Shown: one piece after another, positions 23,545 through 54,775 of the stretch
Layout: every line of letters begins with the position of its first letter
Numbering within the stretch: the stretch's first letter is position 1
Assembly: GCA_006503475.1 (NCBI GenBank)
Contig: RSEH01000183.1
Span: forward strand, 31,831-95,830
Source: Stentor roeselii
Taxonomy: Eukaryota; Ciliophora; Heterotrichea; Heterotrichida; Stentoridae
DNA length: 64,000 bases
Reading direction: 5' to 3'
The notes under the pieces: generated by a model
The model's database searches: none
Seen by the model: the letters and a program-made list of their open reading frames with translations, nothing else
What the model was told of the DNA's origin: nothing
Program-made: the position numbers and the translations under genes

Positions 23545-23601
23545 ATTAATAATTTTCCGAAATGGATTAATTAAGTGAGTTTTAAGTGTAGTTTTAATGA
23601 A

Positions 23602-23830
23602 TGTAGAATGATTAATAGAAGATAAAAAGTAGAAAAAGAATTAGACTGATTAATATAAGATAAAAAAGTAAAAAAGAATGTAGACTGATTAATATAAGAT
23701 AAAAAAGTAAAAAAGAATGTAGACTGATTAATATAAGATAAAAAGTAGAAAAGGAATTAGACTGATTAATATAATATAAAAAAGTAAATAATAATTTAGA
23801 CTGATTAATATAAAATAAAAAGTAGAAAAA
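23602..23830. repeat. Tandem repeat, six copies, 38-39 base unit
   Basis: Copies are marked by GATTAATA at 23610, 23648, 23687, 23726, 23764 and 23803, so the period is 38 or 39. Units alternate between two subtypes (AAAAAGTAGAAAA and AAAAAAGTAAAAA). It lies in the 390-base space between two convergent genes, and no gene is seen there. Confidence 0.9.
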
Positions 23831-53358: not shown

Positions 53359-54775
53359 ATGTCTTGCATATACGACCAATGCCCTCACCCGATATCAAAT
53401 CTCTGCATTTGCAGCAAATCTTCATTTCTATGCTCTTTTCATTCATTAATCCACCAGAATACTTGCAAACAACCTCAAATCCCTCTCAATTCTTTACGTT
53501 CCGAAGAAGAAAGTGAAAGACTCAAAACACTTTTAAATCAAATCAGAAATTCAGTACTTGAAGCAAAGTCTTTACTTTTGATATCAATTGAAGAAATTGT
53601 TGAAAAATTTTTAAATGACTTGAACAAAATTGACCTTTTTGTTAATTATGCGGATTCTGTCATTATTCCCAGACAAGACTTTCAAATTTTAGATGAAGTT
53701 TTGATTTGGGTCAAGGATTTTCTTGGAATCAAAAACTTTTCAATTGAAGAGATTTTGAATATTGACCAGAAAGAATTAAGTGGTAATGAATTTTCATTGT
53801 CGACTGCTGGAAGCTTTGCTTTTGCTGACATTCATAAAAATCCTGTAGGAATGCCTTTAGAGAAAGAAGAAGGAATTAATTGGCTACAAGAAAATGGATT
53901 TGAATTCAAATCAGAAGAGATATGTGAAATCACAACGAATAAAGAAGCAAATTATGCTTATTTATGTTAGGGATATGCAGATTGTTTGGATAAAAAGTTG
54001 GTTTTGCTAATTCGGATGGTTTGATTTATTAAGAAAGTGAGAATTATAAGGTAAGGGCTACAAGATTGTTAATATAAAAAGGTAAACCATATCAAAGACT
54101 GTAGATTTAAGCAGATGGTTTACGTACCCAGCAAGTATCTTCAACCAGACTGTAATCCAAAAGAAGTTTGTATCAAAAATCAGTCTGTCATCTTAAACCA
54201 GACTGTAAGTGCAATAAAGCAAGTGACATCTAAAAGGTAACTCTAATAAGATTGTATCCTCAAATAGTCTGTAAATAAAAATAGGTAATTTTCATCCAGT
54301 CTGTCAGTTTCACCCAGGTTGTACCAAAGATCCAGGGCGTATTATCCACTGAGGAAGTTGTAAAATCTTTAAAGTCGGTATTTATAAAAAGACTGTAAAA
54401 TCAATTTAGGCCGTATCATTCACAGAGCCAACATTTGCTACGAGGAAGGTAATGATAAAAAGCAAGTAATAAAAAACAAGTAAGTAACACCCACAAGAAA
54501 GTAATAATCAAAAGAATCATCTAAAGAAAAAAGTCCTACTCATTCAGAGACTTGTAACTTTTATCAAGTTTGTTCATTCTAAATAGTTAGTAAGCAAGAA
54601 ACAGCTTGTTTATTCAAATAGCAAGTATCAACTCCTTAGCCTGTGTCAAAAATTCAGACTGTAGTCTTAAATAGTGATGATCATCAATGTTCCATCTGGA
54701 AAACTTGAAGGAGTCTTTCATAATACTCGAAAAGAAGTGAAACCATGGTTGGTCCTCTTGCAAGATACAAGTTAA
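53359..54775 (+). CDS. B-box-like zinc-finger protein carrying an array of about 39 tiny introns
   Basis: Exon 1 (53359-53965) encodes a B-box-like finger: CIYDQCPHP, CICSKS and FLCSFHSLIHQNTC. A helical region (about residues 48-120) follows. The frame then appears to stop at TAG 53968-53970, but that TAG lies within the first of about 39 tandem GT...AG units. Removing all of them leaves 849 coding bases (282 residues), open throughout, that end in an obvious terminal exon (54675-54775) with IINVPSGKLEGVFHN and KEVKPWLVLLQ. The micro-exon part reads YFDENYYANFFYSN and similar text. The encoded function is unknown; B-box fingers mediate protein contacts. An alternative is that the array is non-coding and the true gene ends at 53970, but then the in-frame terminal exon would be unexplained. 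Confidence 0.7.
53966..54674 (+). repeat. Micro-intron array with one-codon exons
   Basis: Units (start-end, last three or fewer digits from 53966): 53966-80, 53984-97, 54001-15, 019-33, 037-50, 051-64, 068-81, 082-97, 101-14, 118-31, 135-48, 152-66, 170-83, 187-201, 205-19, 223-36, 237-50, 254-67, 271-84, 285-99, 303-17, 321-35, 339-53, 360-74, 378-91, 395-409, 413-27, 449-62, 466-80, 484-97, 501-14, 533-47, 554-68, 572-86, 590-604, 608-21, 625-39, 643-57, 661-74. Twenty are 15 bases, eighteen are 14 and one is 16. All but 54001-15 (ends GG) begin GT and end AG. About 31 have A 6 bases from the end; most of the rest have it one base later. Exons are 3 bases in most gaps, and 0, 6, 18 or 21 in the others. 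All units are phase 1. Confidence 0.75.

Follow-up and report, generated by a model that had tools for sequence, protein, structure and literature searches.

Micro-exons, 15-nt introns, recursive splicing and subtelomeric gene families are each known separately. The var and VSG genes are subtelomeric hypervariable gene families, and TRIM proteins have variable loops. The Schistosoma micro-exon genes (MEGs), which encode variable proteins, string together very short exons whose lengths are mostly divisible by three; these exons are mostly 15 bp long, with introns of 0.1-5 kb (PMC10526429). Stentor and Blepharisma possess short GT..AG spliceosomal introns of 15-16 nt, mostly with an A at position 10 from the 5' end (A10) (PMC9505925; PMC9942806). 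In S. coeruleus, A10 is present in 90.9% of introns, and the annotation holds only 15- and 16-nt introns, with the 16-nt class making up 7% and usually carrying its A at position 11; genes with introns mostly contain one or a few of them, and some contain more than eight, which the authors regard as of doubtful status (PMC9505925). In recursive splicing, zero-nucleotide-exon splicing and the splicing of microexons of 1-3 nt, removal proceeds step by step past exons of a size that exon definition cannot handle, and the cases described are isolated sites or single microexons (PMC4674806).

The array family that we describe resembles the Schistosoma MEGs in its runs of symmetric short exons; however, long introns between them are absent, the exons are mostly 3 or 0 nt, the introns are mostly 14-17 nt, and the variation is seen in the codons. 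Its units share the GT..AG ends, the shortness and the A10 of Stentor and Blepharisma introns, but 7-38 of them are packed together with one codon or none in between. Unlike the isolated sites of recursive splicing or single microexons, they come by the dozen in series with coding content. Like the families of the var, VSG and TRIM kind, it is large, lies near chromosome ends and has a variable recognition-like segment; unlike theirs, the codons of its variable loop would be separated by introns. Among the best-ranked open-licence full texts, none describes a coding array in which each exon holds one codon. If our reading is true, dozens of successive exons can each amount to a single codon or be empty, a situation that exon-definition models forbid.

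The DNA analysed was a 64,000-nt stretch of Stentor roeselii (the window). Positions 53966-54674 parsed into 38 GT..AG units of 14 nt (n = 18), 15 nt (n = 19) or 16 nt (n = 1), every one in phase 1. The 37 internal exons comprise 28 of 3 nt, four of zero length, two of 6 nt, one of 18 nt and two of 21 nt. When the 38 predicted introns, 553 nt in total, are taken out, ATG 53359 is joined to TAA 54773-54775 in a single frame of 287 codons, and the predicted spliced product reads YFGFANSDENYYANFF. The features are as follows.

53359..53965, plus strand: exon 1, 607 nt, with a Cys/His-rich N-terminus followed by a coiled coil presumed by eye; it closes with ...NKEANYAYL + T in phase 1, the point at which the relatives P0002 and P0003 also end
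53966..54674, plus strand: 38 tiny introns in a row (14-16 nt, GT..A10..AG), separated by mostly one-codon exons
53966, 53984, 54019, 54037, 54051, 54068, 54082, 54101, 54118, 54135, plus strand: starts of array introns 1-10
54152, 54170, 54187, 54205, 54223, 54237, 54254, 54271, 54285, 54303, plus strand: starts of array introns 11-20
54321, 54339, 54360, 54378, 54395, 54413, 54449, 54466, 54484, 54501, plus strand: starts of array introns 21-30
54533, 54554, 54572, 54590, 54608, 54625, 54643, 54661, plus strand: starts of array introns 31-38
53998..54018, plus strand: internal exon, 21 nt
54037..54064, plus strand: back-to-back intron pair, zero-length exon at 54050/54051
54068..54097, plus strand: back-to-back intron pair, zero-length exon at 54081/54082
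54223..54250, plus strand: back-to-back intron pair, zero-length exon at 54236/54237
54271..54299, plus strand: back-to-back intron pair, zero-length exon at 54284/54285
54428..54448, plus strand: internal exon, 21 nt
54515..54532, plus strand: internal exon, 18 nt
54675..54775, plus strand: terminal exon (...MIINVPSGKLEGVFHNTRKEVKPWLVLLQDTS, stop TAA 54773-54775)

An earlier sequence-only reading had counted about 39 such units, mostly one codon apart, and had predicted that their removal opens a frame of 282 codons (849 bases). The run of tiny phase-1 units is real and the one-codon spacing holds, with 38 units in our parse; the frame is indeed open through the array into the terminal exon, but at 287 codons. 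The figure of 849 bases would correspond to one further 15-nt removal, for which no site was identified, and the frame would be unchanged either way.

As a chance test, we took the longest chain of 14-16-nt GT..AG units with gaps of 0, 3 or 6 nt. This chain had 24 units in the window array, compared with at most four in 300 first-order Markov resamplings of the region, at most three in 30 Markov resamplings of the window, and at most three in 20 other 10-kb stretches of the same genome. No chain of at least four units was found on the minus strand. When the window array was parsed blind to A, 31 of 33 units had A at position 10 (binomial P 4e-12, assuming a background of 36%), in agreement with the conserved A noted earlier. 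Tandem Repeats Finder and a direct-repeat search gave weak local repeats only in the array, and the similarity from unit to unit is limited. Three-unit GT..AG chains were also seen outside the family, at L033 (G000:C31:60001-70000; three such chains), L034 and L042, and may be chance or short arrays elsewhere.

The locus is not alone in the assembly (44.4 Mb, 522 contigs). The predicted window protein led to 21 further N-terminal paralogue loci, and 14 of them have arrays, mostly placed after '...SNDGKYxFF' and leading to a terminal exon like '..VWNLE..RYPEC.Y.EWGY'. The others (L003, L004, L009, L017, L020, L021 and L023) had no array within the 3.1-3.4 kb examined and were omitted from the counts; the contigs of L017 and L020 have family exon matches outside that stretch, where an array may lie farther off. 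The terminal exon of L015 gave 97 genome matches with an E of at most 10, of which 75 had E<0.001, in a list that contains weak matches and misses L008, L010, L016 and the window gene. The 20 best of these loci beyond those already in the set all have arrays, of 8-31 units, with L055 the most degraded. Six further members were picked via array-exit DNA and, because they were selected in this way, are not independent evidence for the generality of arrays. The final set had 41 members including the window gene, with 7-38 introns each, and the family would number roughly 75-100 genes. Across the 41 members, 340 exons are of one codon, 121 of zero length and 41 of two codons. Of the 41 arrays, 38 open with a zero-length pair and 26 end in the order intron|intron-NNN-intron.

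The window gene is best read as a divergent member of this family. The N-terminal pattern and the architecture are common to both, but by sequence the link is weak: no paralogue with an array matches the window gene better than E 5e-4, and L003, the best-matching paralogue (E 3e-8), had no array in the stretch examined; the terminal exon of the window gene matched itself alone in the genome. The architecture first reported as that of a single odd gene is retained, and the singularity is not. The window's contig also has, about 79 kb off, a second terminal-exon match (G000:C98:6065-6226) with one TAG inside and with array-exit DNA.

Members tend to sit near contig ends: on contigs of at least 50 kb, 22 of 25 are no more than 15 kb from an end, where 6.7 would be expected (P 3e-11), with C244 and C521 each supplying two members. 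For the window gene, the distance from its start to an end is 10.6 kb. A telomere-like repeat was present at one of the three contig ends looked at: the contig of L012 (G000:C124:1-) opens with (CACCCTAA)n, and the family member begins about 490 bases from it. The repeat reported for Blepharisma is CCCTAACA, of which CACCCTAA is a permutation (PMC9942806). Because a member contig begins with this telomere-like repeat, the assembly is suggested to be macronuclear, after DNA elimination.

To compare rates of change, we used 34 of the 41 members (the seven poorly parsed ones were left out) and formed 15 non-overlapping pairs, which were chosen greedily for the most similar introns, so that intron distance is biased downward. 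Intron interiors differed at 232/1689 sites and flanking exons at 22-29%, whereas loop codons differed at 88/216 (41%) of positions 1 and 2 and at 40/109 (37%) of position 3. With labels taken from one member only, the values were 15.3% for interiors, 312/913 (34.2%) for the loop and 27% for flanking exons. Within the limits of this pairing, loop codons are two to three times as diverged as the surrounding introns. Inside arrays, 575 pairs of 16-nt units differed by 30% on average over the twelve interior positions and by 62-73% at the codon letters. Unit pairs with identical introns (n = 25 without L069) had 19, 13 and 4 differences at codon positions 1, 2 and 3, and 18 more such pairs in L069 showed the same tendency. 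These numbers are small and the pairs are not independent, so the indication that codon differences are under selection is modest and only suggestive.

Duplication of units is visible in some arrays. In L045, CTA occurs three times after introns that differ at one site, and in L053 (G000:C493) four ATGATT exons stand in a row and would encode alternating Asp-Tyr, with identical introns before three of them; the L053 array looks like a very recent unit expansion. These repeats bear on an alternative that concerns origin only and leaves splicing as it is, namely that introner-like intron copies spread into pre-existing coding sequence, one per codon, instead of intron-codon units being duplicated. 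Introns of different genes can indeed outmatch coding exons in likeness; among the pairs listed, L012/L064 differ at 1/89 intron sites but at 17/41 sites of the pre-array exon and 36/103 of the terminal exon. However, the units that repeat contain the codon, as in L045 and L053, and the loop varies in length (5-52 residues) and sequence even between related members. We regard the introner-like origin as unlikely, and duplication of intron-codon units is the origin we prefer.

The gaps between units behave as codons. Among gaps of at most 8 nt, 490/522 were multiples of three, or 482/523 in a parse blind to A and phase, compared with 308/890 in shuffled arrays. In the 26 clean members, which have exons of 0, 3, 6 or 9 nt only under a parse that favours multiples of three and is blind to stops, stop codons numbered 0/277 in the predicted phase and 5/251 and 39/277 in the other phases. 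Exon-order shuffles of these members had a mean of 11.4 stops (minimum 5 in 1000), and letter shuffles a mean of 21.2 (minimum 9). Adding seven members gave 0 stops against a mean of 23.3, a selected figure, as the seven were chosen as in-frame and stop-free. All 41 members together have 10 in-phase stops (L011, 1; L054, 3; L055, 2; L060, 1; L061, 2; L069, 1), and in six (L044, L054, L057, L060, L061 and L069) the length of one exon is not divisible by three; such members may be broken copies or contain missed introns. The 20-intron, largely homogenised array of L069 (G000:C469) has its frame broken by a single 2-nt exon, which may reflect a broken copy or an error of assembly. In L007 and L013 the arrays are otherwise clean, but the pre-array exon immediately before them shows an in-frame TGA and an apparent frame break, respectively, and these too are possible broken copies.

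The predicted loop has 5-52 residues, with a median of 10, in the 33 in-frame members. Without the first residue, which is mostly Tyr, it is rich in Tyr, Asp, Gly and Trp, with Y at 12.0%, D at 9.7%, F and G at 8.4% each, S at 7.7%, N at 6.9% and W at 3.6%, and it is poor in L, I and V (3.3/2.8/2.8%, compared with 12.2/8.4/8.0% in letter shuffles). Against exon-order shuffles the L/I/V bias is slight (8.3%, compared with a mean of 11.5% and a minimum of 8.5%), indicating that the triplets themselves hold most of it.

These data bear on the possibility that the whole array is one long intron from the first GT to the last AG, its inner units being either relics or steps of recursive splicing, with the loop codons kept out of the mRNA. 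Members whose exons are all multiples of three would reach the terminal exon in the same frame either way, and recursive splicing is known from the systems cited above. Yet stops are missing from the predicted phase only (the 39/277 above are in phase 2), the loop composition is far from that of letter shuffles, and the gaps stay multiples of three though unit length varies. None of these patterns is expected in discarded sequence, and they therefore count against this reading, to which we give a very small probability.

Protein database searches returned unspliced open frames only. P0002 and P0003, 48% identical to the window protein, end ...YAFLCED at the window protein's first array intron (...YAYL, then T|GT), as would be expected of a gene caller meeting a phase-1 intron. 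P0004 is identical to L022 at 187/192 residues and P0005 to L005 at 143/148, and both end before the array. Gene callers would thus miss the arrays: of the four related database proteins found, P0002 and P0003 are cut at the first array intron, and P0004 and P0005 are cut upstream of that intron. A code with UGA as W, as in Blepharisma, was considered and rejected: TGA ends 12/109 frames of at least 250 codons, and most of these stop again soon after.

The ends of P0002 and P0003 at the first GT would also suit a non-coding degenerate minisatellite lying downstream of genes that stop there (in the window, at TAG 53968-53970), as would the tandem homogenisation of units in one subfamily. However, after the arrays of the 26 clean members the conserved terminal exon stands in the right frame. 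Moreover, GT/AG sites in the 15 pairs differ at 67/1385 (4.8%) and unit interiors at 585/3833 (15.3%), with labels from one member only, and the window units are little alike and yet keep their A10. A minisatellite is therefore highly improbable in our judgement.

Reading the units as introns is consistent with their internal structure. We parsed the 41 members with units of 13-18 nt and with no preference for A, gap phase or length, and obtained 6 units of 13 nt, 56 of 14, 237 of 15, 201 of 16, 40 of 17 and 40 of 18. A10 was present in 86% of 14-nt, 90% of 15-nt, 87% of 16-nt and 78% of 17-nt units, and was weaker in 18-nt (60% of 40) and 13-nt units (33% of 6). Among 16-nt units without the homogenised GTAACY/GTAATC type it was present in 82% of 74. 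Ordinary 15-nt introns of the same genome have A10 in 13/16 cases; the sampled sequence gave 37 candidate introns of 10-25 nt, with a clear peak at 15 nt, the exact length of 16 of them. Against the intron reading, the 14- and 17-nt lengths are absent from the S. coeruleus annotation, where the A of 16-nt introns is mostly at position 11 and not 10 (PMC9505925), and ordinary introns of this genome are almost all 15 nt long. Since A10 holds across 14-17-nt units, GT and the branch A seem to be a constant distance apart, with the slack 3' of the A. Zero-length-exon pairs keep A10 in both halves (115/121 first, 95/121 second), in a parse mildly favouring A near the 3' end.

The reading of the units as introns with one-codon exons is thus supported by the family, the multiples-of-three gaps, the stop-free predicted phase and an A10 like that of ordinary introns. 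The earlier suggestion of non-spliceosomal excision, which would include DNA-level excision in macronuclear development and recalls the short DNA segments that ciliates eliminate (PMC9942806), is disfavoured to the point of being barely credible, because the units conform to GT..A10..AG, as the genome's ordinary introns do, and the telomere-like repeat suggests a macronuclear assembly from which such segments are already gone.

We consider it highly probable that the array is a run of 15-nt ciliate-type spliceosomal introns with mostly one-codon exons, removed stepwise, in a divergent member of a large family found mostly near contig ends. The array, the gap rule, the A10 rule, the depletion of stops, the loop composition, the relative divergence and the contig-end position are computed; from such sequence features we infer the splicing itself, its order, translation, exchange between genes and function. 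Sequential removal is proposed because simultaneous assembly on introns three bases apart is not plausible. Introns would be removed one after another, and a ruler, consisting of the branch A at nucleotide 10 and an AG 4-7 nt later, would select the next 3' site with no need for exon definition. Every excision would set the next GT against the growing upstream exon, making zero-length exons passable; with sequential removal and the ruler, these would be no harder than others. The same ruler would keep a distant GT and AG from pairing. Since the exons are multiples of three in phase 1, the product would be an open loop between conserved flanks (...SNDGKYxFF-Y...loop...-xVWNLE...RYPEC...). Intron-plus-codon units would duplicate in tandem and would probably also pass from one gene to another; the codons would meanwhile diversify, perhaps under selection. 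If this is true, the intron-length ruler of 15-nt spliceosomes is directly testable.

The function of the loop is the weakest step; it is probably a recognition or binding surface, a guess made from its composition, variability and position. Its residue mix resembles, we presume, that of antibody CDR3 loops. A Cys/His pattern at the N-terminus is invariant in seven aligned proteins; however, no B-box was present among the Pfam matches of the window protein or L015, and nothing in Pfam was above cut-off for the window protein or five others. The loop flanks may recall one WD40 blade; the profile support in the five proteins scanned consisted of two subthreshold Pfam matches to WD40 (E 0.11 and 0.15), spanning the loop. 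A PDB sequence search gave no convincing match (best E 0.44).

It is about an even chance that the arrays serve codon-at-a-time diversification. Tandem intron-codon cassettes would let the roughly 75-100 near-end genes make a CDR3-like recognition loop longer or shorter and change its residues without leaving the frame, with introns kept alike by exchange between genes and codons driven apart; such rewriting would be possible because fixed-ruler splicing tolerates any number of one-codon or empty exons. If true, the combination of a cleanly duplicating noncoding spacer and a free-to-change codon would be a new route to hypervariable protein loops. Elsewhere in the window, outside the array gene, positions 23599-23830 hold a 39-bp tandem repeat of six copies with 89% matches.
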